Program-made: the position numbers and the translations under genes
Shown: piece by piece, positions 2,966 to 49,434 of the stretch
Position numbering within the stretch: the first letter of the stretch is position 1
How the letters are laid out: every line of letters begins with the position of its first letter
NCBI RefSeq assembly: GCF_040958095.1
Contig: NC_091152.1
Location: 16,908,041 to 16,972,040, forward strand
Direction of reading: 5' to 3'
Source: Procambarus clarkii
Taxonomy: Eukaryota; Arthropoda; Malacostraca; Decapoda; Cambaridae
DNA length: 64,000 nt
Notes under the pieces: model-generated
What the model saw: the letters and a program-made list of their open reading frames with translations, nothing else
Database searches by the model: none
What the model was told of the DNA's origin: nothing

Positions 2966-3697
2966 GCAGGTGTCCCCCCACCAGTCAAACCCACAGGTGT
3001 CCCCCCACCACCAGTCAAACCCACAGGTGTCCCCCCCACCACCAGTCAAACCCACAGGTGTCCCCCCCACCACCAGTCAAACCCACAGGTGTCCCCCCAC
3101 CAGTCAAACCCACAGGTGTCCCCCCACCACCAGTCAAACCCACACGTGTCCCCCCCACCACCAGTCAAACCCACAGGTGTCCCTCCACCAGTCAAACCCA
3201 CAGATGTCCCCCCACCAGTCAAACCCACAGGTGTCTCCCCACCAGTCAAACCCACAGATGTCCCCCTCCCCCCACCAGTCAAACCCACAGGTGTCTCCCC
3301 ACAGGTGTCCCCCCCCAGTCAAACCCACTGGTGTCCCCACCACCAGTCAAACCCACAGGTGTCCCCCCACCAGTCAAACCCACAGGTGTCTCCCACCAGT
3401 CAAACCCACAGGTGTCCCCTACACCAGTCAAACCCACAGGTGTCTCCCCACAGGTGTCCCCCCACCAGTCAAACCCACAGGTGTCTCCCCACAGGTGTCC
3501 CCCACCAGTCAAACCCACAGGTGTCTCCCCACAGGTGTCCCCCACCAGTCAAACCCACAGGTGTCTCCCCACAGGTGTCCCCACCAGTCAAACCCACAGG
3601 TGTCTCCCCACAGGTGTCCCCCACCAGTCAAACCCACAGGTGTCTCCCCACAGGTGTCCCCCACCAGTCAAACCCACAGGTGTCCCCCACCAGTCAA
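2966..3697. repeat. C-rich minisatellite, CCACCAGTCAAACCCACAGGTGTCCC
   Basis: About 25 irregular units (roughly 24-36 bp) share CAGTCAAACCCACAGGTGTC, separated by variable C-runs and CCACCA blocks. The second half adds a shorter TCCCCACAGGTGTCC spacer, giving an alternating long/short pattern from 3290 on. All three plus frames and two minus frames stay open for hundreds of bases only because the unit lacks stops; the ORFs are not credible genes. The minus strand is rich in G-runs. Confidence 0.95.
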
Positions 3698-3900
3698 ATC
3701 AAATGTTTATTCAGGTAAAAGTGCATACATACGAGTTACAATGTTGGATTATGAGGATTAGTTGAATTAGTCACACCACTGGTGCCCTCACCAGTCAAAC
3801 CACAGGTGTCCTCACCAGTTACACCACTGGTGTCGTTGCCAGTCACACCACTGGTGTCCTCGCCAGCCCAGCCAGAGGTGTGCACACCAGGCATGCGAGT
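3698..3900. repeat. LINE-tail remnant and degenerate minisatellite edge
   Basis: AAATGTTTATTCAGGTAAAA followed by GTGCATACATACGAG resembles the reversed 3' end of the LINE family at 8085. After it, from 3775 to about 3870, diverged units resume (CACCACTGGTGTC, CACCAGTCAAACCACAGG). The tail therefore probably inserted into the minisatellite edge. Confidence 0.5.
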
Positions 3901-11316: not shown

Positions 11317-14184
<2,868 letters not shown>

Positions 14185-14685: not shown

Positions 14686-15962
14686 AATACAATACAATTT
14701 TATTTAGGTAAGGTACATACATACAATAAATATTTACAAGGATTGTTTAACTTATAGGTAGAGCTAGTACATACAATGCCTAAAGCCACTATTACGCAAA
14801 GCGTTTCGGGCATGATAAACTTAAATGACAAGCTTAATACTAATTGAGCATAATGAGTAGAATGAAAACAAGAAATGAAAACATAGATGAAAAAGCAGCA
14901 CAAATACAATTATGTCGACAAACAGCGCTCTTTAAAGAAAAAACAGACCTTGGTTGACAATAGAAGGGTAAGGTAGGTTACAGGGAATTTATTAGGTATA
15001 GCTTCGCTTTAACTTAAACTGGTTGAGAGAGGTACAGTCTTTAACATGGTTGGAAGGTCATTCCACATTCTGGGCCCCTTGATTTGTAGAGCATTTCTAG
15101 TTTGATTAAGTCGTACTCTAGGAATATCAAAACTGTATTTATTTCTGGTGTGATGCTCATGGGTTCTGATACAACCTTCTATGAAGCTTTTGAGATCAGG
15201 ATTGGCATTATAGTTTAGCGTTTTATATATGTATAATACACATGAGAGAATGTGCAGTGACTTAATGTCTAACATATTCAGAGATTTGAGTAGGGGTACC
15301 GAGTGATGTCTGGGGCCAGAATTGGATATTGTCCTAATAGCAGCTTTGTGTTGAGTAATTAGAGGACGTAAGTGATTTTGGGTAGTAGAGCCCCAAGCAC
15401 AAATACCATAGTTGAGATATGGATAGATACGGGAGTAATAGAGAGTCCACCAGGGCAGGGCGTGGTACATAATATCTGATCTTAGAAAGAATGCCCACAG
15501 TTTTTGAAACTTTTTTTGTTATGTTTAGAATGTGTCCCTGGAAATTAAGCTTGTGGTCAATGAGAATGCCAAGGAATTTGCCATCTAATTTGTTACAAAT
15601 TTGGGTATTGTTTATTTTGAGATTTATTTGATTAGAGGATTTATTGCCAAACAGAATATAGAAAGTTTTGTCAATGTTAAGGGTGAGTTTGTTGGCAGTT
15701 AGCCACAGATGGACTTTATTTAGCTCAGTATTTACTGTGGCATTTAGAGCAAGGGGATCAGGACTGGAGTAAATGAAGGTTGTGTCGTCAGCAAATAGAA
15801 TTGGTTTGAGGTGTTGGGAGGCATTTGGAAGGTCATTAATGTAGATGAGAAAGAGGAGAGGGCCAAGTATGCTGCCCTGGGGAACACCAATGTTGATGGG
15901 TTTAATGATATTCTGTAACCTTTCCTTGCCACAGTCAACCAACAAACTAATACTAAACATAG
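14686..15962 (-). mobile_element. LINE1-type copy with RT core, one frameshift
   Basis: The minus frame from 15960 shows the RT core: GVPQGSILGPLLFLIYINDL, catalytic FADD at 15795-15784, WLTANKLTLNIDKTFYILFG and KLDGKFLGILIDHKLNFQGH. Near 15450 the frame shifts and resumes as SRIYPYLNYGICAWGSTTQN to about 15009. The 3' UTR carries GCCCGAAACGCTTTGCGTAA and ends at 14686 in ACAATACAATTTTATTTAGG (reversed). The N-terminus and endonuclease are missing. Its truncated end abuts the 3' end of the LINE2 copy. Confidence 0.88.
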
Positions 15963-15965
15963 AAA

Positions 15966-16945
15966 AGACCTACTATTTATTTATTTATTTATATATATAC
16001 AAGAAGGTACATTGGGATTGTGAGGATACATAGCATAGTAATTACATTCTTGTAAAGCCACTAGTACGCGCAGCGTTTCGGGCAGGTCCTTAATCTAAGG
16101 AAATATTAAGTAGGTAAATACTTGCAAAATTTATAAAAATGATAACAGGTACATAGCAAGAAAAAAAATAAAAGATGAGAGAAAATTTGTAGGTATATTA
16201 AAGCACATAGGTAGCTCAGATTGATTGCAATGACAGCTTGAATGGTAGTTAAAAAAAATTAGTAGGCACAATACAGCATATGGCTAGCACATAAAAGAAG
16301 ACAGCAATGAACACAATGATAAGGTTGTTTGGATTAAGTACATTAAGATTGGGAGATTGGGTAACACTAGATACAGAGCAAATTTAAAGCTCAGTGTAGG
16401 AAACTAAATAGATGAAGTTAGGTACGTTTTGGTTTTGGTTTTAAATAAGGCAAAAGTTTTACAGTTTTTCAATTCACTAGGGAGTGAGTTCCATAGACTA
16501 GGTCCCTTAATTTGCATAGTGTGTTTACACAGATTAAGCTTGACCCTGGGGATATCAAAGAGATATTTATTTCTGGTGTTGTGATAATGGGTCCTATTAC
16601 ATCTGTCCAGGGAGAGTTTCAGAGCAGGATTTGCTTTTAAGAACAGGGTTTTGTAAATGTAGTTGACACAAGAGAATGTGTGGAGGGAGTTAATATTTAG
16701 CAAGTTTAGGGATTTAAACAAGGGAGCTGAGTGTTGTCTGAAAGCAGAATTTGTTATTATTCTGATAGCAGATTTTTGCTGGGTGATGATGGGCTTAAGG
16801 TGGTTTGCAGTGGTAGACCCCCATGCACAGATACCATAATTAAGATAGGGGTAGATTAGTGCATAATATAGTGAGAGGAGAGCAGAGTTAGGAACATAAT
16901 ATCTTATTTTAGAGAGTATACCAACTGTTTTAGAGACTTTTAGAG
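15966..16945 (-). mobile_element. LINE2-type copy, 5'-truncated; reference for the tail family
   Basis: The minus frame at 16721-16404 reads HYHNTRNKYLFDIPRVKLNL and MQIKGPSLWNSLPSELKNC, homologous to but distinct from LINE1 (HTRNKYSFDIPRV). Upstream pieces (IYPYLNYGICAWGST at about 16850) extend it to about 16945. Its 3' UTR contains GCCCGAAACGCTGCGCGTAC, AGTGGCTTTACAAGAATGTA and a terminal (TAAA)n. This links the solo tails at 4020, 4945, 6070, 9055 and 17485 to a reverse-transcriptase family. Confidence 0.85.
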
Positions 16946-16959
16946 ACTAGAGGGGTATA

Positions 16960-17130
16960 GTGAGGCGTGACGTCACGGAATGACGTTTGGAGGCAGCCAT
17001 GACGTCACACAGTAATACAGCATGGGAGGCATGACGTAGTACAGCAGCAGACGTAGCGGCAGTAGTACAGCAGACAGAGGTGGCGCGGTGACGTATATAA
17101 GGGTCCCGGAGGCCAGGAGCGCCACACACG
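16960..17130 (+). promoter_or_regulatory. TATA promoter with clustered CRE sites
   Basis: Two full palindromic TGACGTCA sites (16968-16975, 17000-17007) and further TGACGT half-sites (16981, 17032, 17089) precede TATATAA at 17094-17100. The start codon is at 17155, which places transcription start near 17125-17140; CTCAGC at 17134 is a possible initiator. TGACGTCA is the known CREB/ATF binding site; cAMP-type control is an inference. The cluster begins about 20 bp after the truncated end of the LINE2 copy. Confidence 0.7.
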
Positions 17131-17154: not shown

Positions 17155-17175
17155 ATGATGGCCAGCAAGCTCCTG
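17155..17175 (+). CDS. Exon 1 of the tyrosine-rich secreted peptide gene (MMASKLL)
   Basis: ATGATG at 17155 opens seven codons (MMASKLL) ending at a strong donor, CTG|GTGAGT, phase 0. The start follows the TATA box by about 55 bp. Exon 1 supplies only the N-region of the signal peptide; exon 2 at 20674 supplies the hydrophobic core in the same phase. The pairing is inferred from phase, orientation and the fit of the joined signal peptide. The intron (17176-20673) holds a LINE tail, a SINE and two tandem arrays. Confidence 0.75.
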
Positions 17176-17484
17176 GTGAGTCCACAGTTCTCTCTTGCAT
17201 GTCCCCTCCCGCCGGCGGCGACCACTCTCCTGACAAACATTCTAGTGTGATAGGTTTCCCCTGGAGGCTGTCCGGATTCTACAGACTGTTAATGCATGCG
17301 GGCTGCATGTTGACCAGTTGGTTATTTCAAAGAAAGCAGAGAGATAGCATCAATAAAGTCGGGGTGGGAATTCGTTGTAAATGGAATGTCTCAGGCCTCT
17401 GTTATTTAACATATATAATATTTACACTCAGGATTGAGCAGCATTATCGGCAAACGATGACATCTTATTGCTTCATATTTACAA

Positions 17485-18365: not shown

Positions 18366-18948
18366 TAATATGACACAATAGATATAAATTTAATAAATTT
18401 TGATTCAGTATAGATCTTGATAAATACTGGTTTGGAAATAAATTTTCTATATTGGTTTATGGAATGAATTACCGGGTAACGTGATAGACATGGGATAGTT
18501 GGAGTGTTTCAGTCGTAGGATAGACATACAGTATATATGAAGGAATTTGGATTGATATAAATAAAAGCTGCAGTGAAGGGATCAATAGGCTTTTTGATTC
18601 CTGCATTCTGAAGTTCGTTTGCTATTTTATAGTTTTCTTCTATAGTTTATAGTTTTCTCGCACACCACTTTCCTATATTATGTTAAATCTAATTTCCTTA
18701 TGATCACTGTTCCCAAACTTGCTTCTCATTTCTATATCATTCACTAGAGTTTCTGCTAGAACCTAGTCTAATATTTTGCTTTTCGTGATGGTTCCACGAT
18801 ATATTGTTGAAGAAAGCAGTTCTCCAACATTTCTGAATTTACATTGTCAATGTTATTTATACAGTTTAATGTACTATAATTAGTTGCCAATGATACAAGC
18901 GTTGTCATGACTAGATACCAAGGATACTGCTATACCAAGGATATATCT
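18366..18948. other. Intron 1 sequence without recognised features
   Basis: AT-rich; no coding frame or repeat core identified between the SINE and the 16-bp array. Confidence 0.5.
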
Positions 18949-18950
18949 GC

Positions 18951-19492
18951 GCACACATGTATCTGTGCACACATGTATCTGAGCACACATGTATCTGCGC
19001 ACACATGTATCTGTGCACACATGTATCTGAGCACACATGTATCTGAGCACACATGTATCTGTGCACACATGTATCTGCGCACACATGTATCTGTGCACAC
19101 ATGTATCTGCGCACACATGTATCTGTGCACACATGTATCTGAGCACACATGTATCTGCGCACACATGTATCTGTGCACACATGTATCTGAGCACACATGT
19201 ATCTGAGCACACATGTATCTGTGCACACATGTATCTGAGCACACATGTATCTGTGCACACATGTATCTGAGCACACATGTATCTACGCACACATGTATCT
19301 GTGCACACATGTATCTGCGCACACATGTATCTGTGCACACATGTATCTGAGCACACATGTATCTACGCACACATGTATCTGCGCACACATGTATCTGAGC
19401 ACACATGTATCTGAGCACACATGTATCTACGCACACATGTATCTGTGCACACATGTATCTGCGCACACATGTATCTGAGCACACATTTCCTT
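18951..19492. repeat. 16-bp minisatellite, ACATGTATCTGNGCAC, about 34 copies
   Basis: Units of exactly 16 bp share GCACACATGTATCT and differ at the dinucleotide after TCT, which is GT, GA, GC or AC. Nearly all variation sits at these two bases. Because 16 is not a multiple of 3, each strand has long frames rotating through Thr/His/Cys-rich peptides; these are spurious. It lies inside intron 1 of the tyrosine-rich gene. Confidence 0.97.
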
Positions 19493-19878
19493 CTATCGAG
19501 CTTTGGCGGCCTATATGACACACCTTTCATTAAGCCATCATTATTTTCATGTTATTCATTTCTGACAGCTGTGTGTGGCTCAGTTTTTAACCCCTTGTTG
19601 TCAGAACATCTATTTGCTTTCTGATATATATTGCTGCTCCCCTCCTTCTCTAATCTATCAATGTGTAGCAATTTGTAACTTCAATTTATATTGAGACAAT
19701 AGTTAATTATTTTGCACATTCATACATGATTCTGTTAGAGAAATAATATCTATTAATTCTGTGTAGATAAATAAATGCTAAAAGTCAGCTAACATTTTAA
19801 ATTCAACTGGATAAGATCATTAGGGCAAATGGGGGGGGGGATCTTGACAAGCTGCCGGCTTCCTGTCCTCATCGAGGC
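19493..19878. other. Intron 1 sequence without recognised features
   Basis: Unrecognised sequence with a G-run (19831-19841) before the splice-acceptor array. Confidence 0.45.
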
Positions 19879-20673
19879 CACTGTGCTGGCTCTCCTGACT
19901 GTTGTAACACAATGTTGTCACACTCGCAGGTACTGGTACTGGTGGTGCTGGCTCTCCTGACTGTTGTAACACAGTGTTGTCACACTCGCAGGTACTGGTA
20001 CTGGTGGTGCTGGCTCTCCTGACTGTTGTAACACAGTGTTGTCTCACTCGCAGGTACTGGTACTGGTGGTGCTGGCTCTCCTGACTGTTGTAACACAGTG
20101 TTGTCTCACTCGCAGGTACTGGTACTGGTGGTGCTGGCTCTCCTGACTGTTGTAACACAATGTTGTCTCACTCGCAGGTACTGGTACTGGTGGTGCTGGC
20201 TCTCCTGACTGTTGTAACACAGTGTTGTCTCACTCGCAGGTACTGGTACTGGTGGTGCTGGCTCTACTGACTGTTGTAACACAATGTTGTCTCACTCGCA
20301 GGTACTGGTACTGGTGGTGCTGGCTCTCCTGACTGTTGTAACACAGTGTTGGCTCACTCGCAGGTACTGGTACTGGTGGTGCTGGCTCTCCTGACTGTTG
20401 TAACACAGTGTTGGCTCACTCGCAGGTACTGGTACTGGTGGTGCTGGCTCTCCTGACTGTTGTAACACAGTGTTGGCTCACTCGCAGGTACTGGTACTGG
20501 TGGTGCTGGCTCTCCTGACTGTTGTAACACAGTGTTGGCTCACTCGCAGGTACTGGTACTGGTGGTGCTGGCTCTACTGACTGTTGTAACACAGTGTTGT
20601 CTCACTCGCAGGTACTGGTACTGGTGGTGCTGGCTCTCCTGACTGTTGTAACACAGTGTTGTCTCACTCGCAG
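19879..20673 (+). repeat. 62-bp tandem array of the exon-2 splice acceptor
   Basis: Twelve complete 62-bp units, with GTACTGG starts at 19930, 19992, 20054 and then every 62 bp up to 20612, plus a partial unit from 19879, lead directly into the true exon 2 at 20674. Each unit has about 32 bp identical to the start of exon 2 (GTACTGGTACTGGTGGTGCT, then GGCTCTCCTGAC) and about 30 bp of intron with TTGTAAC (branch-point-like) and TCACTCGCAG. Every unit thus repeats a complete candidate 3' splice site. Using any upstream copy would give a frame that ends at TGA about 30 codons later. Confidence 0.93.
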
Positions 20674-20886
20674 GTACTGGTACTGGTGGTGCTGGCTCTC
20701 CTGACGGTAGCAGTCGTCGGGGCTCCGGACTACGGCTACTACACTTACCCCTACGGCCCTAATCCTCCCTACGTGAGCTACTACTACGGAAATTCCCCGT
20801 ATTACTACTACTACAACTACGGCTATCCGTACTACAACTACGGCTACCCACTCTCCTACAGTTACGTTAATATGATGTCCGGATAG
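20674..20886 (+). CDS. Exon 2: small secreted tyrosine-rich peptide
   Basis: After CTCGCAG|GTACTG the frame gives 70 residues to TAG at 20884-20886. Joined to exon 1 (MMASKLL) the product is 77 residues. Residues 1-23 form a classic signal peptide, with a hydrophobic core VLVLVVLALLTVAVVG and probable cleavage before APDYGYY. The mature part, about 54 residues, has 22 Tyr (41%) with Pro, Gly and Asn in PYY, GYP and NYG motifs and runs of up to five Tyr; there is no Cys. Such composition is known in extracellular structural proteins (cuticle, cement, shell matrix), where Tyr can be cross-linked; that role here is inference. I do not recognise a named family. A frame from upstream of 20674 is also open but would begin in the intronic repeat. 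Confidence 0.8.
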   Translation, partial: VLVLVVLALLTVAVVGAPDYGYYTYPYGPNPPYVSYYYGNSPYYYYYNYGYPYYNYGYPLSYSYVNMMSG

Positions 20887-21335
20887 GTGGACTATCCGGA
20901 TTATCCAGCAGTCCGGATAGGCGGCGACCTGGGCTGCCGGAAGCCCAAGTGAGAGGCTTCAAAATTCTTGGAAAAGTTCCCGGATAAGTTTTTCAAGAAG
21001 TTTCAGAAGACTCCGACAAGCCTCGCAAGCCTAGCATCTCCCAAACATGGTATCAGCCTTATTACACCTTTATTTTGGTAAAAGTGCGTAGTAGTTGAAT
21101 GATGGCGAGTAGTGTAGAGTGCGTGAAGGAGTCCCACGGGGCTTGGGAGCCTACGCACTCAACACGAACATCGTCTGAGTGTGTGAACGCAATTTATTAA
21201 AATCGGTATTTGAGGGTGTCTATACACACACATTATTAGGAAATAAACTCACAATTGTCGATTTCAAAGAACTGAAGATAAAATAAATAATTAGTTTACC
21301 ATTATTTTGTGTTAATATTACGTTCCACGTCGACT
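20887..21335 (+). other. Probable 3' UTR of the tyrosine-rich gene
   Basis: No coding frame. CCGGATA occurs several times in both orientations just after the stop (20877-20920). A canonical AATAAA lies at 21242-21247, the first good polyadenylation signal, suggesting a 3' UTR of about 370-390 bases. Confidence 0.5.
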
Positions 21336-22232
21336 AATAAATAAATAAATAAATATGTTTATTCAGGTAAGGTATATACATACAAGTGATGTTACATTAA
21401 TGGATTGATATATAGATAGAGCTAGTACATACAATGCCTAAAGCCACTATTACGCAATGCGTTTCGGGCAGGAAAAACATTAATATCTAGAACTTAATAC
21501 TAATTGAGCATAAAGAATAAAAAGTGTTGAGAACAAATACAAATAAAGATAAAAAAAGGGGGGGGGGGAACATGACTGAAAAAGCAGCACAAATACAATA
21601 GGTTGACAAAAAGTGATAAAAAAAAAAAAAATAACAGACATGGGTTGACAATAGAGGAGTGAGGTAGGTTACAGGGAATTTATTAGGTAGTGTTTAGTTT
21701 ATATCTTAAACTGGTTGAGAGAGGTACAGTCTTTAACATGGTTGGGAAGGTCATTCCACATTCTGGGTCCCTTGATTTGTAGAGCATTTCTAGTTTGATT
21801 AAGTCGTACTCTAGGAATATCAAAACTGTATTTATTCCTGGTGTGGTGCTCATGGGTTCTGTTACAACCTTCTATGAAGCTTTTGAGGTCAGGATTGGCA
21901 TTACAGTTCAGCGTTTTATATATGTATAATACACATGAGAGAATGTGCAGTGACTTAATATCTAACATATTCAGAGATTTGAGTAAGGGTACCGAGTGAT
22001 GTCTGGGGCCAGAGTTGGATATTGTCCTAATAGCAGCTTTGTGTTGGGTAATTAGAGGACGTAAATGATTTTGGGTAGTAGAACCCCAAGCACAAATACC
22101 ATAGTTGAGATATGGATAGATAAGGGAGTAATAGAGAGTAACCAGGGCAGGGCGTGGTACATAATATCTGATCTTAGAAAGAATGCCAACAGTTTTTGAA
22201 ACTTTTTTTGATATATTTAGAATGTGTCCCTG
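21336..22232 (-). mobile_element. LINE1-type copy, 5'-truncated
   Basis: The minus frame at 22277-21699 reads KKVSKTVGILSKIRYYVPRP, SLIYPYLNYGICAWGSTTQN, HTRNKYSFDIPRVRL and IKGPRMWNDLPNHV. The 3' UTR carries GCCCGAAACGCATTGCGTAA and ends in (TTTA)n at 21338-21355. The RT catalytic core is missing. A G-run and A-runs (21556-21633) in the 3' UTR differ from the other copies. Confidence 0.87.
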
Positions 22233-22360: not shown

Positions 22361-25300
22361 AACTGTTCCTGGCCTCTGGTAATATTGGGAGAACCGTTCC
22401 TGGCCTCTGGTAATATTGGGAGAACTGTTCCTGGCCTCTGGTAATATTGGGTGAACTGTTCCTGGCCTCTGGTAATATTGGGAGAACTGTTCCTGGCCTC
22501 TGGTAATATTGGGAGAACTGTTCCTGGCCTCTGGTAATATTGGGTTAAGTGTTCCTGGCCTCTGGTAATATTGGGTGAACTGTTCGTGGCCTCTGGTAAT
22601 ATTGGGTGAACTGTTCCTGGCCTCTGGTAATATTGGGAGAACCGTTCCTGGCCTCTGGTAATATTGGAAGAACTGTTCCTGGCCTCTGGTAATATTGGGT
22701 GAACTGTTCCTGGCCTCTGGTAATATTGGGAGAACTGTTCCTGGCCTCTGGTAATATTGGGAGAACTGTTCCTGGCCTCTGGTAATATTGGGTTAAGTGT
22801 TCCTGGCCTCTGGTAATATTGGGTGAACTGTTCCTGGCCTCTGGTAATATTGGGAGAACTGTTCCTGGCCTCTGGTAATATTGGGAGAACTGTTCCTGGC
22901 CTCTGGTAATATTGGGAGAACTGTTCCTGGCCTCTGGTAATATTGGGTGAACTGTTCCTGGCCTCTGGTAATATTGGGAGAACTGTTCCTGGCCTCTGGT
23001 AATATTGGGAGAACTGTTCCTGGCCTCTGGTAATATTGGGTTAAGTGTTCCTGGCCTCTGGTAATATTGGGTGAACTGTTCCTGGCCTCTGGTAATATTG
23101 GGTGAACTGTTCCTGGCCTCTGGTAATATTGGGAGAACCGTTCCTGGCCTCTGGTAATATTGGGAGAACTGTTCCTGGCCTCTGGTAATATTGGGTGAAC
23201 TGTTTCTGGCCTCTGGTAATATTGGGAGAACTGTTCCTGGCCTCTGGTAATATTGGGAGAACTGTTCCTGGCCTCTGGTAATATTGGGTTAAGTGTTCCT
23301 GGCCTCTGGTAATATTGGGTGAACTGTTCCTGGCCTCTGGTAATATTGGGAGAACTGTTCCTGGCCTCTGGTAATATTGGGAGAACTGTTCCTGGCCTCT
23401 GGTAATATTGGGTTAAGTGTTCCTGGCCTCTGGTAATATTGGGTGAACTGTTCCTGGCCTCTGGTAATATTGGGTGAACTGTTCCTGGCCTCTGGTAATA
23501 TTGGGAGAACTGTTCCTGGCCTCTGGTAATATTGGGTTAAGTGTTCCTGGCCTCTGGTAATATTGGGAGAACTGTTCCTGGCCTCTGGTAATATTGGGAG
23601 AACTGTTCCTGGCCTCTGGTAATATTGGGAGAACTGTTCCTGGCCTCTGGTAATATTGGGAGAACTGTTCCTGGCCTCTGGTAATATTGGGAGAACTGTT
23701 CCTGGCCTCTGGTAATATTGGGTGAACCGTTCCTGGCCTCTGGTAATATTGGGTGAACTGTTCCTGGCCTCTGGTAATATTGGGTGAACTGTTCCTGGCC
23801 TCTGGTAATATTGGGAGAACTGTTCCTGGCCTCTGGTAATATTGGGTGAACTGTTCCTGGCCTCTGGTAATATTGGGTGAACTGTTACTGGCCTCTGGTA
23901 ATATTGGGTGAACTGTTCCTGGCCTCTGGTAATATTGGGTGAACTGTTCCTGGCCTCTGGTAATATTGGGAGAACTGTTCCTGGCCTCTGGTAATATTGG
24001 GAGAACTGTTCCTGGCCTCTGGTAATATTGGGAGAACTGTTCCTGGCCTCTGGTAATATTGGGAGAACTGTTCCTGGCCTCTGGTAATATTGGGAGAACT
24101 GTTCCTGGCCTCTGGTAATATTGGGAGAACTGTTCCTGGCCTCTGGTAATATTGGGTGAACTGTTCCTGGCCTCTGGTAATATTGGGTGAACTGTTCCTG
24201 GCCTCTGGTAATATTGGGTGAACTGTTCCTGGCCTCTGGTAATATTGGGTGAACTGTTCCTGGCCTCTGGTAATATTGGGAGAACTGTTCCTGGCCTTTG
24301 GTAATATTGGGAGAACTGTTCCTGGCCTCTGGTAATATTGGGAGAACTGTTCCTGGCCTCTGGTAATATTGAGAGAACTGTTCCTGGCCTCTGGTAATAT
24401 TGGGTGAACTGTTCCTGGCCTCTGGTAATATTGGGAGAACTGTTCCTGGCCTCTGGTAATATTGGGTTAAGTGTTCCTGGCCTTTGGTAATATTGGGAGA
24501 ACTGTTCCTGGCCTCTGGTAATATTGGGTGAACTGTTCCTGGCCTCTGGTAATATTGGGAGAACTGTTCCTGGCCTCTGGTAATATTGGGTTTAAGTGTT
24601 CCTGGCCTCTGGTAATATTGGGAGAACTGTTCCTGGCCTCTGGTAATATTGGGTGAACCGTTCCTGGCCTCTGGTAATATTGGGTGAACTGTTCCTGGCG
24701 TCTGGTAATATTGGGTGAACTGTTCCTGGCCTCTGGTAATATTGGGAGAACTGTTCCTGGCCTCTGGTAATATTGGGTGAACTGTTCCTGGCCTCTGGTA
24801 ATATTGGGTGAACTGTTACTGGCCTCTGGTAATATTGGGAGAACTGTTCCTGGCCTCTGGTAATATTGGGAGAACTGTTCCTGGCCTCTGGTAATATTGG
24901 GAGAACTGTTCCTGGCCTCTGGTAATATTGGGAGAACTGTTCCTGGCCTCTGTAATATTGGATGAACTGTTCCTGGCCTCTGGTAATTGTGGGTGAACTG
25001 TTCCTGGCCTCTGGTAATATTGGGTGAACTGTTCCTGGCCTCTGGTAATATTGGGTGAACTGTTCCTGGCCTCTGGTAATATTGGGAGAACTGTTCCTGG
25101 CCTCTGGTAATATTGGGTTAAGTGTTCCTGGCCTTTGGTAATATTGGGAGAACTGTTCCTGGCCTCTGGTAATATTGGGTGAACTGTTCCTGGCCTCTGG
25201 TAATATTGGGAGAACTGTTCCTGGCCTCTGGTAATATTGGGAGAACTGTTCCTGGCCTCTGGTAATATTGGGAGAACTGTTCCTGGCCTCTGGTAATATT

Positions 25301-28300
25301 GGGTGAACTGTTCCTGGCCTCTGGTAATATTGGGAGAACTGTTCCTGGCCTCTGGTAATATTGGGTGAACTGTTCCTGGCCTCTGGTAATATTGCGTGAA
25401 CTGTTCCTGGCCTCTGGTAATATTGGGAGAACCGTTCCTGGCCTCTGGTAATATTGGGAGAACTGTTCCTGGCCTCTGGTAATATTGGGAGAACTGTTCC
25501 TGGCCTCTGGTAATATTGGGAGAACTGTTCCTGGCCTCTGGTAATATTGGGAGAACTGTTCCTGGCCTCTGTAATATTGGATGAACTGTTCCTGGCCTCT
25601 GGTAATATTGGGTGAACTGTTCCTGGCCTCTGGTAATATTGGGTGAACTGTTCCTGGCCTCTGGTATATTGGGTGAACTGTTCCTGGCCTCTGGTAATAT
25701 TGGGAGAACTGTTCCTGGCCTCTGGTAATATTGGGTTAAGTGTTCCTGGCCTTTGGTAATATTGGGAGAACTGTTCCTGGCCTCTGGTAATATTGGGTGA
25801 ACTGTCCTGGCCTCTGGTAATATTGGGAGAACTGTTCCTGGCCTCTGGTAATATTGGGAGAAACTGTTCCTGGCCTCTGGTAATATTGGGAGAACTGTTC
25901 CTGGCCTCTGGTAATATTGGTGAACTGTTCCTGGCCTCTGGTAATATTGGGAGAACTGTTCCCTGGCCTCTGGTAATATTGGGTGAACTGTTCCTGGCCT
26001 CTGGTAATATTGCGTGAACTGTTCCTGGCCTCTGGTAATATTGGGAGAACCGTTCCTGGCCTCTGGTAATATTGGGAGAACTGTTCCTGGCCTCTGGTAA
26101 TATTGGGTGAACTGTTCCTGGCCTCTGGTAATATTGGGAGAAACTGTTCCTGGCCTCTGGTAATATTGGAGAACTGTTCCTGGCCTCTGGTAATATTGGG
26201 AGAACTGTTCCTGGCCTCTGGTAATATTGGGTGAACTGTTCCTGGCCTCTGGTAATATTGGGTGAACTGTTCCTGGCCTCTGGTAATATTGGGTGAACTG
26301 TTCCTGGCCTCTGGTAATATTGGGTGAACTGTTCCTGGCCTCTGGTAATATTGGGAGAACTGTTCCTGGCCTTTGGTAATATTGGGAGAACTGTTCCTGG
26401 CCTCTGGTAATATTGGGAGAACTGTTCCTGGCCTCTGGTAATATTGGGAGAACTGTTCCTGGCCTCTGGTAATATTGGGTGAACTGTTCCTGGCCTCTGG
26501 TAATATTGGGAGAACTGTTCCTGGCCTCTGGTAATATTGGGTTAAGTGTTCCTGGCCTTTGGTAATATTGGGAGAACTGTTCCTGGCCTCTGGTAATATT
26601 GGGTGAACTGTTCCTGGCCTCTCGTAATATTGGGAGAACTGTTCCTGGCCTCTGGTAATATTGGGTTAAGTGTTCCTGGCCTCTGGTAATATTGGTGTTA
26701 AGTGTTCCTGGCCTTTGGTAATATTGGGTGAACCGTTCCTGGCCTCTGGTAATATTGGGTGAACTGTTCCTGGCCTCTGGTAATATTGGTGAACTGTTCC
26801 TGGCCTCTGGTAAAATTGGGAGACTGTTCCTGGCCTCTGGTAATATTGGGAGAACTGTTCCTGGCCTCTGGTAATATTGGGTGAACCGTTCCTGGCCTCT
26901 GGTAATATTGGGTGAACTGTTCCTGGCCTCTGGTAATATTGGGTGAACTGTTCCTGGCCTCTGGTAATATTGGGAGAACTGTTCCTGGCCTCTGGTAATA
27001 TTGGGTGAACTGTTCCTGGCCTCTGGTAAATATTGGGTGAACTGTTACTGGCCTCTGGTAATATTGGGTGAACTGTTCCTGGCCTCTGGTAATATTGGGT
27101 GAACTGTTCCTGGCCTCTGGTAATATTGGGAGAACTGTTTCCTGGCCTCTGGTAATATTGGGAGAACTGTTCCTGGCCTCTGGTAATATTGGGAGAACTG
27201 TTCCTGGCCTCTGGTAATATTGGATGAACTGTTCCTGGCCTCTGGTAATATTGGGTGAACTGTTCCTGGCCTCTGGTAATATGGGTGAACTGTTCCTGGC
27301 CTCTGGTAATATTGGGTGAAACTGTTCCTGGCCTCTGGTAATATTGGGAGAACTGTTCCTGGCCTCTGGTAATATTGGGTTAAGTGTTCCTGGCCTTTGG
27401 TAATATTGGGAGAACTGTTCCTGGCCTCTGGTAATATTGGGTGAACTGTTCCTGGCCTCTGGTAATATTGGGAGAACTGTTCCTGGCCTCTGGTAATATT
27501 GGAGAACTGTTCCTGGCCTCTGGTAATATTGGGAGAACTGTTCCTGGCCTCTGGTAATATTGGGTGAACTGTTCCTGGCCTCTGGTAATATTGGGAGAAC
27601 TGTTCCTGGCCTCTGGTAATATTGGGTGAACTGTTCCTGGCCTCTGGTAATATTGGGTGAACTGTTCTGGCCTCTGGTAATATTGGGAGAACCGTTCCTG
27701 GCCTCTGGTAATATTGGGAGAACTGTTCCTGGCCTCTGGTAATATTGGGTGAACTGTTCCTGGCCTCTGGTAATATGGGTGAACTGTTCCTGGCCTCTGT
27801 AATATTGGGAGAACCGTTTCCTGGCCTCTGGTAATATTGAGAGAACTGTTCCTGGCCTCGGGTAATATTGGGTGAACTGTTCCTGGCCTCTGGTAATATT
27901 GGGTGAACTGTTCCTGGCCTCTGGTAATATTGGGAGAACCGTTCCTGGCCTCTGGTAATATTGGGAGAACCTGTTCCTGGCCTCTGGTAATATTGGGAGA
28001 ACTGTTCCTGGCCTCTGGTAATATTGGGAGAACTGTTCCTGGCCTCTGGTAATATTGGGAGAACTGTTCCTGGCCTCTGGTAATATTGGGTGAACTGTTC
28101 CTGGCCTCTGGTAATATTGGGTGAACTGTTCCTGGCCTCTGGTAATATTGGGTGAACTGTTCCTGGCCTCTGGTAATATTGGGTGAACTGTTCCTGGCCT
28201 CTGGTAATATTGGGAGAACTGTTCCTGGCCTTCTGGTAATATTGGGAGAAACTGTTCCTGGCCTCTGGTAATATTGGGAGAACTGTTCCTGGCCTCTGGT

Positions 28301-31300
28301 AATATTGGGAGAACTGTTCCTGGCCTCTGGTAATATTGGGTGAACTGTTCCTGGCCTCTGGTAATATTGTGAGAACTGTTCCTGGCCTCTGGTAATATTG
28401 GGTTAAGTGTTCCTGGCCTTTGGTAATATTGGGATGAACTGTTCCTGGCCTCTGGTAATATTGGGTGAACTGTTCCTGGCCTCTGGTAATATTGGGGAGA
28501 ACTGTTCCTGGCCTCTGGTAATATTGGCGTTAAGTGTTCCTGGCCTCTGGTAATATTGGGAGAACTGTTCCTGGCCTCTGGTAATATTGGGAGAACCTGT
28601 TCCTGGCCTCTGGTAATATTGGGTGAACTGTTCCTGGCCTCTGGTAATATTGGGTGAACTGTTCCTGGCCTCTGGTAATATTGGGAGAACTGTTCCTGGC
28701 CTCTGGTATATTGGGTGAACTGTTCCTGGCCTCTGGTAATATTGGGTGAAACTGTTACTGGCCTCTGGTAATATTGGGTGAACTGTTCCTGGCCTCTGGT
28801 AATATTGGGTGAACTGTTCCTGGCCTCTGGTAATATTGGGAGAACTGTTCCTGGCCTTTGGTAATATTGGGAGAACTGTTCCTGGCCTCTGGTAATATTG
28901 GGAGAACTGTTCCTGGCCTCTGGTAATATTGGGAGAACTGTTCCTGGCCTCTGGTAATATTGGGTGAACTGTTCCTGGCCTCTGGTAATATTGGGAGAAC
29001 TGTTTCCTGGCCTCTGGTAATATTGGGTTAAAGTGTTCCTGGCCTTGGTAATATTGGGAGAACTGTTCCTGGCCTCTGGTAATATTGGGTGAACTGTTCC
29101 TGGCCTCTGGTAATATTGGGAGAACTGTTCCTGGCCTCTGGTAATATTGGGTTAAGTGTTCCTGGCCTCTGGTAATATTGGGTTAAGTGTTCCTGGCCTT
29201 TGGTAATATTGGGTGAACGTTCCTGGCCTCTGGTAATATTGGGTGAACTGTTCCTGGCCTCTGGTAATATTGGGTGAAACTGTTCCTGGCCTCTGGTAAT
29301 ATTGGGAGAACTGTTCCTGGCCTCTGGTAATATTGGGAGAACTGTTCCTGGCCTCTGGTAATATTGGTGAACCGTTCCTGGCCTCTGGTAATATTGGGTG
29401 AACTGTTCCTGGCCTCTGGTAATATTGGGTGAACTGTTTCCTGGCCTCTGGTAATATTGGGAGAACTGTTCCTGGCCTCTGGTAATATTGGGTGAACTGT
29501 TCCTGGCCTCTGGTAATATTGGGTGAACTGTTACTGGCCTCTGGTAATATTGGGTGAACTGTTCCTGGCCTCTGGTAATATTGGGTGAACTGTTCCTGGC
29601 CTCTGGTAATATTGGGAGAACTGTTCCTGGCCTCTGGTAATATTGGGTAGAACTGTTCCTGGCCTTCTGGTAATATTGGGAGAACTGTTCCTGGCCTCTG
29701 GTAATATTGGGTGAACTGTTCCTGGCCTCTGGTAATATTGGGAGAACTGTTCCTGGCCTCTGGTATATTGGGGAGAACTGTTCCTGGCCTCTGTAATATT
29801 GGGAGAACTGTTCCTGGCCTCTGGTAATATTGGGAGAACTGTTCCTGGCCTCTGGTAATATTGGGGAGAACTGTTCCTGGCCTTCTGGTAATATTGGGTG
29901 AACTGTTCCTGGCCTCTGGTAATATTGGGTGAACTGTTCCTGCCTCTGGTATATATTGGGAGAACCGTTCCTGGCCTCTGGTAATATTGGGAGAAACTGT
30001 TCCTGGCCTCTGGTAATATTGGGTGAACTGTTTCCTGCCTCTGGTAATATTGGGTGAACTGTCCTGGCCTCTGTTAATATTGGGAGAACCGTTTCCTGGC
30101 CTCTGGTAATATTGGAGAGAACTGTTCCTGGCCTCTGGTAATATTGGGTGAACTGTTCCTGGCCTCTGGTAATATTGGGTGAACTGTTCCTGGCCTCTGG
30201 TAATATTGGGATGCACTGTTCCTGGCCTCTGGTAATATTGGGAAGAACTGTTTCCTGGCCTCTGGTAATATTGGGTGAACTGTTCCTGGCCTCTGGTATA
30301 TTGGGTGAACTGTTCCTGGCCTCTGGTAATATTGGGTGAACTGTTTCCTGGCCTCTGGTAATATTGTGGTTGAACTGTTCCTGGCCTCTGGTAATATTGG
30401 GAGAAAACTGTTCCTGGCCTCTTGGTAATATTGGGAGAACTGTTCCTGCCTCTGGTAATATTGGGTGAACTGTTCCTGGCCTCTGGTAATATTGGGTAGA
30501 ACTGTTCCTGGCCTCTGGTAATATTGGGTGAACTGTTCCTGCCTCTGGTAAATTTGGGAGAACTGTTCCTGGCCTCTGGTAATATTGGTGAAGTGTTTCC
30601 TGGCCTTGGTAATATTTGGGTGAACTGTTCCTGCCTCTGGTAATATGGGTGAACTGTTCCTGGCCTCTGTAATATTGGGAGAACTGTTCCTGGCCTCTGG
30701 TAATATTGGGTTAAGTGTTCCTGGCCTTTGGTAATATTGGGAGAACTGTTCCTGGCCTCTGGTAATATTGGGTGAACTGTTCCTGGCCTCTGGTAATATT
30801 GGGAGAACTGTTCCTGGCCTCTGGTAATATTGGGTTAAGTGTTCCTGGCCTCTGGTAATATTGGGAGAACTGTTCCTGGCCTCTGGTAATATTGGGTGAA
30901 CCGTTCCTGGCCTCTGGTAATATTGGGTGAACTGTTCCTGGCCTCTGGTAATATTGGGTGAACTGTTCCTGGCCTCTGGTAATATTGGGAGAACTGTTCC
31001 TGGCCTCTGGTAATATTGGGTGAACTGTTCCTGGCCTCTGGTAATATTGGGTGAACTGTTACTGGCCTCTGGTAATATTGGGTGAACTGTTCCTGGCCTC
31101 TGGTAATATTGGGTGAACTGTTCCTGGCCTCTGGTAATATTGGGAGAACTGTTCCTGGCCTTTGGTAATATTGGGAGAACTGTTCCTGGCCTCTGGTAAT
31201 ATTGGGAGAACTGTTCCTGGCCTCTGGTAATATTGGGAGAACTGTTCCTGGCCTCTGGTAATATTGGGTTGAACTGTTCCTGGCCTCTGGTAATATTGGG

Positions 31301-34300
31301 AGAACTGTTCCTGGCCTCTGGTAATATTGGGTTAAGTGTTCCTGGCCTTTGGTAATATTGGGAGAACTGTTCCTGGCCTCTGGTAATATTGGGTGAACTG
31401 TTCCTGGCCTCTGGTAATATTGGGAGAACTGTTCCTGGCCTCTGGTAATATTGGGTTAAGTGTTCCTGGCCTCTGGTAATATTGGGTTAAGTGTTCCTGG
31501 CCTTTGGTAATATTGGGTGAACCGTTCCTGGCCTCTGGTAATATTGGGTGAACTGTTCCTGGCCTCTGGTAATATTGGGTGAACTGTTCCTGGCCTCTGG
31601 TAATATTGGGAGAACTGTTCCTGGCCTCTGGTAATATTGGGAGAACTGTTCCTGGCCTCTGGTAATATTGGGTGAACCGTTCCTGGCCTCTGGTAATATT
31701 GGGTGAACTGTTCCTGGCCTCTGGTAATATTGGGTGAACTGTTCCTGGCCTCTGGTAATATTGGGAGAACTGTTCCTGGCCTCTGGTAATATTGGGTGAA
31801 CTGTTCCTGGCCTCTGGTAATATTGGGTGAACTGTTACTGGCCTCTGGTAATATTGGGTGAACTGTTCCTGGCCTCTGGTAATATTGGGTGAACTGTTCC
31901 TGGCCTCTGGTAATATTGGGAGAACTGTTCCTGGCCTCTGGTAATATTGAGAGAACTGTTCCTGGCCTCTGGTAATATTGGGAGAACTGTTCCTGGCCTC
32001 TGGTAATATTGGATGAACTGTTCCTGGCCTCTGGTAATATTGGGTGAACTGTTCCTGGCCTCTGGTAATATTGGGTGAACTGTTCCTGGCCTCTGGTAAT
32101 ATTGGGTGAACTGTTCCTGGCCTCTGGTAATATTGGGAGAACTGTTCCTGGCCTCTGGTAATATTGGGTTAAGTGTTCCTGGCCTTTGGTAATATTGGGA
32201 GAACTGTTCCTGGCCTCTGGTAATATTGGGTGAACTGTTCCTGGCCTCTGGTAATATTGGGAGAACTGTTCCTGGCCTCTGGTAATATTGGGAGAACTGT
32301 TCCTGGCCTCTGGTAATATTGGGAGAACTGTTCCTGGCCTCTGGTAATATTGGGTGAACTGTTCCTGGCCTCTGGTAATATTGGGAGAACTGTTCCTGGC
32401 CTCTGGTAATATTGGGTGAACTGTTCCTGGCCTCTGGTAATATTGGGTGAACTGTTCCTGGCCTCTGGTAATATTGGGAGAACCGTTCCTGGCCTCTGGT
32501 AATATTGGGAGAACTGTTCCTGGCCTCTGGTAATATTGGGTGAACTGTTCCTGGCCTCTGGTAATATTGGGTGAACTGTTCCTGGCCTCTGGTAATATTG
32601 GGAGAACCGTTCCTGGCCTCTGGTAATATTGAGAGAACTGTTCCTGGCCTCTGGTAATATTGGGTGAACTGTTCCTGGCCTCTGGTAATATTGGGTGAAC
32701 TGTTCCTGGCCTCTGGTAATATTGGGAGAACCGTTCCTGGCCTCTGGTAATATTGGGAGAACTGTTCCTGGCCTCTGGTAATATTGGGAGAACTGTTCCT
32801 GGCCTCTGGTAATATTGGGAGAACTGTTCCTGGCCTCTGGTAATATTGGGAGAACTGTTCCTGGCCTCTGGTAATATTGGGTGAACTGTTCCTGGCCTCT
32901 GGTAATATTGGGTGAACTGTTCCTGGCCTCTGGTAATATTGGGTGAACTGTTCCTGGCCTCTGGTAATATTGGGTGAACTGTTCCTGGCCTCTGGTAATA
33001 TTGGGAGAACTGTTCCTGGCCTTTGGTAATATTGGGAGAACTGTTCCTGGCCTCTGGTAATATTGGGAGAACTGTTCCTGGCCTCTGGTAATATTGGGAG
33101 AACTGTTCCTGGCCTCTGGTAATATTGGGTGAACTGTTCCTGGCCTCTGGTAATATTGGGAGAACTGTTCCTGGCCTCTGGTAATATTGGGTTAAGTGTT
33201 CCTGGCCTTTGGTAATATTGGGAGAACTGTTCCTGGCCTCTGGTAATATTGGGTGAACTGTTCCTGGCCTCTGGTAATATTGGGAGAACTGTTCCTGGCC
33301 TCTGGTAATATTGGGTTAAGTGTTCCTGGCCTCTGGTAATATTGGGAGAACTGTTCCTGGCCTCTGGTAATATTGGGTGAACCGTTCCTGGCCTCTGGTA
33401 ATATTGGGTGAACTGTTCCTGGCCTCTGGTAATATTGGGTGAACTGTTCCTGGCCTCTGGTAATATTGGGAGAACTGTTCCTGGCCTCTGGTAATATTGG
33501 GTGAACTGTTCCTGGCCTCTGGTAATATTGGGTGAACTGTTACTGGCCTCTGGTAATATTGGGTGAACTGTTCCTGGCCTCTGGTAATATTGGGTGAACT
33601 GTTCCTGGCCTCTGGTAATATTGGGAGAACTGTTCCTGGCCTCTGGTAATATTGGGAGAACTGTTCCTGGCCTCTGGTAATATTGGGAGAACTGTTCCTG
33701 GCCTCTGGTAATATTGGGAGAACTGTTCCTGGCCTCTGGTAATATTGGGAGAACTGTTCCTGGCCTCTGGTAATATTGGGAAACTGTTCCTGGCCTCTGG
33801 TAATATTGGGAGAACTGTTCCTGGCCTCTGGTAATATTGGATGAACTGTTCCTGGCCTCTGGTAATATTGGGTGAACTGTTCCTGGCCTCTGGTAATATT
33901 GGGTGAACTGTTCCTGGCCTCTGGTAATATTGGGTGAACTGTTCCTGGCCTCTGGTAATATTGGGTGAACTGTTCCTGGCCTCTGGTAATATTGGGTGAA
34001 CTGTTCCTGGCCTCTGGTAATATTGGGTGAACTGTTCCTGGCCTCTGGTAATATTGGGAGAACTGTTCCTGGCCTCTGGTAATATTGGGTGAACTGTTCC
34101 TGGCCTCTGGTAATATTGGGAGAACCGTTCCTGGCCTCTGGTAATATTGGGAGAACTGTTCCTGGCCTCTGGTAATATTGGGAGAACTGTTCCAGGCCTC
34201 TGGTAATATTGGGTGAACCGTTCCTGGCCTCTGGTAATATTGGGAGAACTGTTCCTGGCCTCTGGTAATATTGGGAGAACTGTTCCTGGCCTCTGGTAAT

Positions 34301-34497
34301 ATTGGGAGAACTGTTCCTGGCCTCTGGTAATATTGGGTGAACTGTTCCTGGCCTCTGGTAATATTGGGAGAACTGTTCCTGGCCTCTGGTAATATTGGGT
34401 GAACTGTTCCTGGCCTCTGGTAATATTGGGAGAACCGTTCCTGGCCTCTGGTAATATTGGGAGAACTGTTCCAGGCCTCTGGTAATATTGGGAGAAA
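22361..34497. repeat. 31-bp satellite array of about 390 copies (12.1 kb)
   Basis: The unit is CTGTTCCTGGCCTCTGGTAA followed by TATTGGGAGAA (31 bp). Recurrent variants are GGGTGAA, GGGTTAAGTG, GGGAGAACCG, GGCCTTTGG and GTTACTGG. Variants recur in blocks, indicating higher-order units. The GTTACTGG variant is near 28755, 31058 and 33541 and also near 29531 and 31835, that is, every 2.3-2.5 kb. Units at both ends are nearly all exactly 31 bp, but between about 25.66 and 30.66 kb many carry 1-base indels. Long minus-strand frames (up to about 350 codons) exist because the unit lacks stops on that strand; they are not genes. Confidence 0.98.
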
Positions 34498-39943: not shown

Positions 39944-40443
39944 NNNNNNNNNNNNNNNNNNNNNNNNNNNNNNNNNNNNNNNNNNNNNNNNNNNNNNNNN
40001 NNNNNNNNNNNNNNNNNNNNNNNNNNNNNNNNNNNNNNNNNNNNNNNNNNNNNNNNNNNNNNNNNNNNNNNNNNNNNNNNNNNNNNNNNNNNNNNNNNNN
40101 NNNNNNNNNNNNNNNNNNNNNNNNNNNNNNNNNNNNNNNNNNNNNNNNNNNNNNNNNNNNNNNNNNNNNNNNNNNNNNNNNNNNNNNNNNNNNNNNNNNN
40201 NNNNNNNNNNNNNNNNNNNNNNNNNNNNNNNNNNNNNNNNNNNNNNNNNNNNNNNNNNNNNNNNNNNNNNNNNNNNNNNNNNNNNNNNNNNNNNNNNNNN
40301 NNNNNNNNNNNNNNNNNNNNNNNNNNNNNNNNNNNNNNNNNNNNNNNNNNNNNNNNNNNNNNNNNNNNNNNNNNNNNNNNNNNNNNNNNNNNNNNNNNNN
40401 NNNNNNNNNNNNNNNNNNNNNNNNNNNNNNNNNNNNNNNNNNN
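39944..40443. other. Assembly gap (500 N)
   Basis: Exactly 500 N, a conventional gap of unknown length. It may hide the upstream exons of the protease-like gene. Frames of X residues are meaningless. Confidence 1.
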
Positions 40444-46685: not shown

Positions 46686-47706
46686 TAGTTATCTTGAAAC
46701 TGAGGCTTTTGAGCACTAAAATTTGAGCTATCTTCCAAGATCAAACTGCTCTATGCATGATATCAGATTTACATTAGAAAGGAGGTACAATTTTTTGAGG
46801 TGATATGGATAATAGTTATCTTGAAACTGAGGCTTTTGAGCACTAAAATTTGAGCTATCTTCCAAGATCAAACTGCTCTATGCATGATATCAGATTTACA
46901 TTAAGAAAGGAGGTACAATTTTTTGAGGTGATATGGATAATAGTTATCTTGAAACTGAGGCTTTTGAGCACTAAAATTTGAGCTATCTTCCAAGATCAAA
47001 CTGCTCTATGCATGATATCAGATTTACATTAAGAAAGGAGGTACAATTTTTTGAGGTGATATGGATAATAGTTATCTTGAAACTGAGGCTTTTGAGCACT
47101 AAAATTTGAGCTATCTTCCAAGATCAAACTGCTCTATGCATGATATCAGATTTACATTAGAAAGGAGGTACAATTTTTTGAGGTGATATGGATAATAGTC
47201 ATCTTGAAACTGAGGCTTTTGAGCACTAAAATTTGAGCTATCTTCCAAGATCAAACTGCTCTATGCATGATATCAGATTTACATTAGAAAGGAGGTACAA
47301 TTTTTTGAGGTGATATGGATAATAGTTATCTTGAAACTGAGGCTTTTGAGCACTAAAATTTGAGCTATCTTCCAAGATCAAACTGCTCTATGCATGATAT
47401 CAGATTTACATTAAGAAAGGAGGTACAATTTTTTGAGGTGATATGGATAATAGTTATCTTGAAATTGAGGCTTTTGAGCACTAAAATTTGAGCTATCTTC
47501 CAAGATCAAACTGCTCTATGCATGATATCAGATTTACATTAGAAAGGAGGTACAATTTTTTGAGGTGATATGGATAATAGTTATCTTGAAACTGAGGCTT
47601 TTGAGCACTAAAATTTGAGCTATCTTCTAAGATCTAACTGCTCTATGCATGATATCAGATTTACATTAGAAAGGAGGTACAATTTTTTGAGGTGATATGG
47701 ATAAGC
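46686..47706. repeat. 127/128-bp tandem repeat, eight copies
   Basis: Starts of TTATCTTGAAACTGAGG lie at 46689, 46816, 46944, 47072, 47199, 47326, 47454 and 47581. Units are almost identical; those with ACATTAAGAAAGG are 128 bp and those with ACATTAGAAAGG 127 bp. The last unit is the most diverged (CTTCTAAGATCTAAC). It lies about 190 bp past the stop codon of the BTB/zinc-finger gene, probably within its 3' UTR, on the strand opposite to that shown. Confidence 0.96.
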
Positions 47707-47893: not shown

Positions 47894-48946
47894 TCATTTC
47901 TCTCTAGACTGTCTTCTTAATGATTCTGCCTTAGTGCTAGATCTTGTCGTTCGCCGATATTTAGATGGCGGTGAATTTGAAGGACTGCCTCCAGGGCTTC
48001 TGATCGAAGAGCTCGAGCTTGAACTTCTAGAGAAATCTTGTAGCGACGAGGGCGACATGCTCAATCTTATCCCGACTCCTGACGACTGTGAGGAAGATGA
48101 ACTACATCTATTATCACTTGGCACCTCTGGCGTCGGAGATGACAACATAACTGCCTTACCAGATTTAGCCTTAACTGAAGACGAAGAACTAGATCTACGC
48201 CTTTTTAGCTTTCTTGATGGCAATACAGGAGATGTACTATTTCTACTGATTCTTCGAACTTTAGCTGGTGGCGATAAAGAAGAGACGGACTTGGCACGGC
48301 TTGGCAACTCTGGAGGCGGTGATGCTGACAGTTTTATTAATTCGTGAACTTTGGATGATGGTGATGAGGAAGCACTAGATTTTGGACTATTGAGAACTTT
48401 TGCCGTTGGTGAGAGTGAAGGACCACCTCTGTTGCTTATATTACTTTCTCGTGCTGGCAACAGCGAGGAGTCCGAGCGTAAGGATTTGCACATTTTCTTT
48501 GAGAAAGGTGGCGATGCTGCCGAACATTCTTGAACTGACTTGCCCTTTTGAACTTTATCACGCGACTTTAAGGTTGGAACTGAAGATGTGTTAATAACGA
48601 CCTTCTTGTTGGGATGTGTTCGTCTCTGGTGTGTAACATGTTGCTTTTCAAGGCAGTGATGAGCTGGGCAGTAAGGACAAGAGAACAGCTTTGCTTTCAC
48701 ATGTTTTGAAATGTGCTTGTTTAAAGAAACTTTATCTAGTGTTCTGAATGGACACTCAGGGCACGGTAAGAACTGTTTCTCCAGATGACTTAATTCATGT
48801 CTCTCCAATACAATTGATGTATCAAACACTTGTTTACAATATTTACATTGAAAAACTCTACAACTTTTACTTTCATTCATTTCTTCCATTATTTTTACAC
48901 TGTCACTACCTTTGGCATCTTGATCCCTGTTCTTCTTGTGATTACT
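47894..48946 (-). CDS. BTB/zinc-finger gene, last exon: three C2H2 fingers and Ser-rich tail
   Basis: A TTGTTGTCAACAG| acceptor (exon start 48946, phase 0) opens 350 codons to the stop at 47894. Three consecutive C2H2 fingers lie near its start: FQCKYCKQVF...HELSH and LPCPECPFRT...HISKH (both C-x2-C-x12-H-x3-H) and FSCPYCPAHH...HQRRTH (x4 between the histidines). A long, low-complexity Ser/Pro/Lys tail with basic patches (KLKRRR) follows, probably disordered with nuclear localisation signals. C2H2 fingers bind DNA; with the BTB exon this is a probable nuclear transcription regulator. The plus-strand frames here are antisense shadows. Confidence 0.85.
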   Translation of the reverse strand, partial: SNHKKNRDQDAKGSDSVKIMEEMNESKSCRVFQCKYCKQVFDTSIVLERHELSHLEKQFLPCPECPFRTLDKVSLNKHISKHVKAKLFSCPYCPAHHCLEKQHVTHQRRTHPNKKVVINTSSVPTLKSRDKVQKGKSVQECSAASPPFSKKMCKSLRSDSSLLPARESNISNRGGPSLSPTAKVLNSPKSSASSSPSSKVHELIKLSASPPPELPSRAKSVSSLSPPAKVRRISRNSTSPVLPSRKLKRRRSSSSSSVKAKSGKAVMLSSPTPEVPSDNRCSSSSSQSSGVGIRLSMSPSSLQDFSRSSSSSSSIRSPGGSPSNSPPSKYRRTTRSSTKAESLRRQSREK

Positions 48947-49434
48947 CTGTTGACAACAAATAATTAATAATCTGTGATCCTTAATCAAGGAAAAGACATA
49001 AAATACAATTCTCATTAGTTAACAAATAAGATAAATAGATGAGATTTTAAGGAACAAATTAGTGCATGCCCCATTTATTTAACTTACTGGAGCCGTATTA
49101 GCCTTGAAGGACATTTAACATATTAATACCAAATTAAACTAAAAGTTGGAGAATAAAATCCTCAACACATGGCTATATTAACTGGAAATTAAACAATTTC
49201 TATTAACCTGCTTTGCTTGATTATGCTTAGCAAGATGTTATAATTTACTTTTAAATTTTTCCATTTACAAATATTACCATTTAAATTACCAGCAACCTGA
49301 ATGTGTCAAGTGCAAAGCAGAGCAGTTCATGGTTCTAGACAATCTGATTTGTACAGTACAGCCTGAGCTGATATATATCCTGTCCTATTAATTCAAGTCT
49401 AAGCCTTTCCTGACGGACACAAAATGTTGCTAAC
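48947..49434 (-). other. Intron of the BTB/zinc-finger gene
   Basis: From AAG|GTTAGC to CAACAG|, phase 0; nothing else recognised. Confidence 0.6.

Follow-up and report, generated by a model that had tools for sequence, protein, structure and literature searches.

A 62-bp minisatellite spanning the predicted boundary between intron 1 and exon 2 in a small crayfish gene

In the crayfish Procambarus clarkii, a tandem array of 62-bp units straddles the boundary between intron 1 and exon 2 of a predicted two-exon gene and carries thirteen near-identical acceptors at exact spacing. We analysed a window of 64,000 nucleotides (NC_091152.1, positions 16,908,041 to 16,972,040, forward strand); all coordinates below are positions within this window. 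The array is likely a boundary minisatellite and is probably both young and length-variable; on this reading the protein comes from splicing to the last acceptor, and those upstream of it are decoys.

Anatomy of the array and its predicted gene

Repeat finding and pattern placement agree on the structure of the array. TRF placed it at 19883-20705 with a period of 62, 13.3 copies, 98% matches, 0% indels and a score of 1569, and the string CAG|GTACTGGTACTGG occurs 13 times, each exactly 62 bp from the next. All parts lie on the forward strand. A 47-bp partial unit (19883..19929, by TRF and sequence match) ends in acceptor 1, followed by 12 full 62-bp units (19930..20673), each made of 32 exon-like bp and 30 intron-like bp. 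The exon-like starts after putative decoy acceptors 1-12 are at 19930, 19992, 20054, 20116, 20178, 20240, 20302, 20364, 20426, 20488, 20550 and 20612, and acceptor 13 opens the exon at 20674. Each unit holds a branch-like GTAAC, some 22 nt from its end, and then a CTCGCAG acceptor; GTAAC occurs 13 times within 19883-20705. The thirteen acceptors, 62-bp spacing and twelve full units plus a partial one described in a first-pass annotation thus hold in both coordinates and count. The acceptor string given there, TCACTCGCAG, is exact at 11 of 13 sites, whereas acceptors 1 and 2 read ACACTCGCAG.

The units are nearly identical. Shifted by one unit against itself, the array matches at 98.3% over 764 bp, which is far beyond chance. 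Among the 12 units ending at acceptors 2-13, the mean difference is 2.0% and 4 of 62 columns vary.

The surroundings of the array read, from sequence, as a small two-exon gene, with a TATA box, a donor, ATGs and an open exon 2 frame, all on the forward strand. The candidate TATA box (TATATAAG, 17094..17101), a sequence match with a presumed function, lies 64 bp 5' of the ATG at 17158. The coding part of exon 1 (17155..17175) contains ATGs at 17155 and 17158, encodes signal-like first residues and ends in a phase-0 junction; we take the ATG at 17158 to have the better start context of the two. Its donor, GTGAGT (17176..17181), scores 6.66 and outranks 99.8% of the 5506 GT sites counted over both strands with arrays masked. 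Splice scores throughout are approximate, coming from matrices of textbook-type frequencies that are neither MaxEntScan nor crayfish-specific. The exon 1 reading frame continues into that of exon 2, whose coding part after acceptor 13 (20674..20886) supplies the rest of the signal-like start and a Tyr-rich peptide before a TAG stop at 20884-20886. Downstream, AATAAA at 21242..21247 is a candidate poly(A) signal; the stretch from 20881 to 22000 contains seven matches to AATAAA or ATTAAA in all. The TATA box, the strong donor and the open, codon-biased exon 2 frame lend support to the gene model that the first-pass annotation had proposed.

The predicted product is short and rich in tyrosine. 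Translation from the first ATG gives 77 residues and from the second 76; a hydrophobic, signal-like start precedes a tail rich in tyrosine, the whole contains 22 tyrosines, and the peptide is probably secreted. TAC encodes 20 of the 22 tyrosines (p ~2e-6 against a window TAC share of 0.41). In the exon 2 frame, GC at third positions is 0.73, versus 0.47 and 0.36 in the other two forward frames. Among cuticle-type genes of arthropods, many encode short, secreted, tyrosine-rich peptides and begin with a tiny exon.

Database searches returned no relatives within their scope. The 77-residue form matched no Pfam family at the curated cut-off; the best match, Anophelin, reached 17.8 bits where 27 are required and covers residues 2-29, the hydrophobic start. 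Neither PDB chains (E up to 1) nor PHROGs (E up to 0.1) gave a match. Within the window, tblastn found no second copy of the peptide (best other match E = 0.52), and Rfam gave no match at gathering scores over the whole window. Among viral contigs, 32 stretches matched a protein pattern and 0 were confirmed, and the exact DNA pattern found no relatives in viral and prokaryote contig collections. Because these collections are viral and prokaryote, the search for relatives tells little about animals.

Acceptor products, unit turnover and neighbouring repeats

Of the 13 acceptors, only the last opens the long frame. Joining exon 1 (17155) to each of acceptors 1-12 gave, in 12 of 12 cases, 37 residues from the first ATG, with a TGA 90 nt past the junction; the 77-residue frame ending in TAG arises from acceptor 13 (20674) alone. 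The translated joins thus bear out an earlier claim that any upstream choice yields a truncated product of roughly 37 residues. They also agree with the suggestion that the thirteenth acceptor is the functional-looking one, in that 20674 alone would keep the frame. Should no further exon follow exon 2, the TGA would have no junction downstream of it, and the 37-residue transcripts might then escape junction-dependent decay.

We propose that a minisatellite of the 'mirage' type grew here as the boundary between intron 1 and exon 2 was duplicated in tandem. Each duplicated unit would carry a branch-like motif, a pyrimidine tract, an acceptor and the first 32 exon bases. The useful mRNA would join the end of exon 1 at 17175 to the last acceptor at 20674, and the twelve upstream acceptors would act as decoys, leading to the early stop without the mature peptide. 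By analogy with the comparable systems below, the last acceptor is presumably used often enough for a working gene. The array is also probably variable in length and close to neutral. It is probably young, and concerted evolution could likewise keep its units alike.

The distribution of variants among units fits minisatellite turnover. Some variants are found in neighbouring units, with a T-to-G change at acceptors 8-11 and a T-to-A change at acceptors 1 and 2; others do not form blocks, namely a C-to-A change in two units and a G-to-A change before acceptors 1, 5 and 7. Neighbour-shared variants and low divergence appear consistent with such turnover, and the 2.0% divergence may reflect either youth or homogenisation. 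The units show no sign of constraint in a low-power comparison of variable columns (1 of 32 exon-like versus 3 of 30 intron-like; Fisher p = 0.35).

The left flank of the array is a fragment of a dispersed repeat (19797..19885, forward strand) with a second copy at ~1454-1554 on the minus strand. Similarity between the two ends where the 62-bp array begins, with a GTG common at the junction. A pattern search recovered the repeat at both places with 0 mismatches and found 0 in 100 shuffles; blastn of 19600-19960 under other settings returned the self match alone, so the match is settings-dependent. A degenerate extra unit to the left of the array was considered and ruled out, since this flank is the dispersed repeat of ~1454-1554.

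Tandem arrays are common in the window: eleven, hand-picked from 40 overlapping TRF rows and short of a full count, cover 26% of it, mostly through one 12-kb array. A 16-bp minisatellite of 33.9 copies (18944..19486, forward strand, by TRF) also lies within intron 1. The 12-kb minisatellite (22361-34496; 31-bp unit, 391 copies, 95% matches by TRF) begins ~1.5 kb past the gene's stop and has long open frames on the minus strand. Elsewhere, a 120-bp unit is repeated three times at 234-594 (99% matches, three CAGGT) within a 232-codon open stretch, a compound array at 2967-3698 holds 26 CAGGT and leaves three forward frames open, and a 127-bp unit is repeated eight times at 46686-47704 (98% matches, 16 AGGT). 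The window also contains reverse transcriptase fragments at 11318-12619 on the forward strand (Pfam RVT_1, E 2.7e-26) and at 15337-15969 on the minus strand (E 2.8e-11). An open stretch at 47897-49018 on the minus strand has C2H2 zinc-finger-like matches below curated cut-offs, followed by a serine-rich tail.

Comparable boundary arrays

Because similar arrays have been described in amphioxus and human genes, the crayfish array is of a known kind: it is a long, unusually regular case of already described boundary arrays, with many intact acceptors. In excerpts of the amphioxus report, 'mirages' are minisatellite-like duplications of intron-exon boundaries in Adh3 and the globins BflGb6 and BflGb9, and RT-PCR suggested that regular splicing is undisturbed by them (PMC3087553). 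The crayfish repeats likewise span a predicted exon-intron boundary, and the presumed authentic boundary, acceptor 13, sits at one end of the array beside an open gene. As in the BflGb6 array described there, the repeated stretch joins the 3' end of an intron to the first part of exon 2; many units carry AG/GT signals in both animals, and the reported Adh3 units of 10-72 bp bracket the 62 bp found here (PMC3087553). The crayfish array differs in unit number, with 12 full units before the true boundary versus 6 and 3 in the two BflGb6 haplotypes given in those excerpts. It also differs in unit likeness, with one length, ~98% identity and AG|GT throughout versus 81-100% in BflGb6, and its gene is different from the amphioxus Adh3 and globin genes.

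Human CBS provides two further parallels. In 844ins68, as in the crayfish array, an intron/exon junction is tandemly duplicated (68 bp versus 62) and the copies present competing sites, of which, according to excerpts of one paper, the more distal is strongly favoured (PMC2630376). The wording there is 'donor', and the title of the splicing paper it cites concerns 3' splice site selection. Mostly wild-type mRNA is made, with nuclear traces of another transcript, in the excerpted account of a second paper (PMC1334203). 844ins68 has one extra copy and its distal use is reported, whereas distal use in the crayfish array is our reading by analogy; what holds for a single extra copy need not scale to thirteen. 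The other parallel, the CBS 31-bp VNTR (c.1444_1467+7, 16-21 copies; PMC2630376, in part), is likewise a many-copy minisatellite at an exon-intron boundary, but on the donor side, whereas the crayfish array is on the acceptor side. In human paralogues more generally, repeats at exon-intron boundaries are described as altering splicing patterns (PMC2812944, in excerpt).

Tandem duplication can also create introns, as excerpts of another report describe for potato RdRp and fission yeast SPOG_01682 (PMC4974935). The potato duplication crosses intron 1/exon 2, as here, and the yeast locus has several AGGT units, as here. Both cases form a new intron, whereas the crayfish array most likely stays inside an old one.

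Acceptor choice and rival explanations

Acceptor 13 is among the strongest acceptors of the array, and several decoys equal it. By the approximate matrix, acceptors 3, 4, 6, 12 and 13 share the top score of 4.66, followed by acceptors 5 and 7 (4.07), 8-11 (3.36), 2 (2.78) and 1 (2.2). The identical scores of acceptors 3, 4, 6 and 12 count against the reading of the array as a set of decoys before one productive site. Competition by strength alone would leave acceptor 13 with ~12% of splicing, a share that might be costly. In model substrates the upstream of two equal acceptors is preferred, which would favour acceptor 1 here. The weakness of acceptors 1 and 2 might favour later sites, and is at most a hint because it comes from one change common to neighbouring units.

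RNA structure marking the last acceptor was examined and rejected: the 881-nt region has z = 0.78, and 16 of 20 shuffles fold as well or better. In local folding, acceptor 13 is the most unpaired of the thirteen over its AG region (0.42, others 0.27-0.38), and its branch region, at 0.66, is not the top of a range of 0.37-0.69. The difference is small and probably due to the different downstream flank of acceptor 13.

The rival that survives best, though we consider it unlikely, is that upstream acceptors take a large share of transcripts that depends on copy number, so that array length sets the amount of peptide. Somewhat less likely still is its heritable form, in which the number of decoys, changeable by unequal exchange, sets the in-frame fraction and individuals differ in peptide amount. 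In favour of such control, the productive acceptor is preceded by twelve others that score similarly and all have the same effect on the frame, the low strength-only share of acceptor 13 points the same way, and the coordinates of the CBS VNTR, as excerpted, span an exon end together with its donor. The amphioxus data, so far as excerpted, instead suggest no interference with regular splicing (PMC3087553), and the units show no sign of constraint, within the low power of that comparison. The first-pass annotation had posed a choice between a special mechanism for the last acceptor and control of protein output. Amphioxus supplies a third case, regular splicing, for which the excerpted text names no special mechanism (PMC3087553).

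It is improbable that the array is a product of assembly, through a wrong copy number or merged alleles, or that the gene is spliced otherwise than proposed. The window is a scaffold, since a 500-base N run, a scaffold gap, lies inside it at 39944-40443; the amphioxus authors, in the excerpted text, call the draft assembly of one array apparently aberrant; and the exon 1/exon 2 junction here is predicted from sequence alone. Against this, however, the units carry distinct variants, the flanking sequence departs from the unit at once, and exons 1 and 2 form one frame with a signal-like start.

Most improbable of all is a recursive ladder, in which exon 1 joins any acceptor, the next GT then serves again as donor, and the array is removed one unit at a time up to the last acceptor, each unit being a 62-nt GT...AG intron that directly abuts the next. 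The first-pass annotation had likened the junctions to recursive-splicing points, and at the level of dinucleotides the likeness stands: 13 of 13 junctions are CAG|GT, each acceptor being followed directly by GT, and every unit runs GT...AG. CAG|GT at each junction is shared with recursive sites and zero-length exons as excerpted from PMC5126111, where the Drosophila consensus is CAG|GTAAGT and many human recursive sites deviate from it. The donor half, however, is where the likeness fails. By the approximate matrix, in which the exon 1 donor reaches 6.66, CAG|GTACTG scores 0.38 in place and so exceeds 91.3% of the 5506 GTs; joining to exon 1 turns it into CTG|GTACTG, whose score of -1.83 exceeds 79.7% of them. 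GTACTG is not near GTAAGT, lacking the A, G and T of the Drosophila consensus at +4, +5 and +6. Moreover, duplication over any AG|GT junction would look alike, and among nine other arrays in the window CAGGT is present in four, with counts of 26, 3, 2 (minus strand) and 1.

Read as a boundary minisatellite with one productive acceptor, the array offers a clean natural experiment on how acceptors are chosen, in that thirteen near-identical units stand at exact spacing and the last alone is useful. Junction counts for each acceptor would reveal which of several near-equal sites the spliceosome favours: the first, the strongest or the last. The same counts would tell whether boundary minisatellites alter gene output. 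The crayfish array may also extend the 'mirage' class beyond amphioxus.
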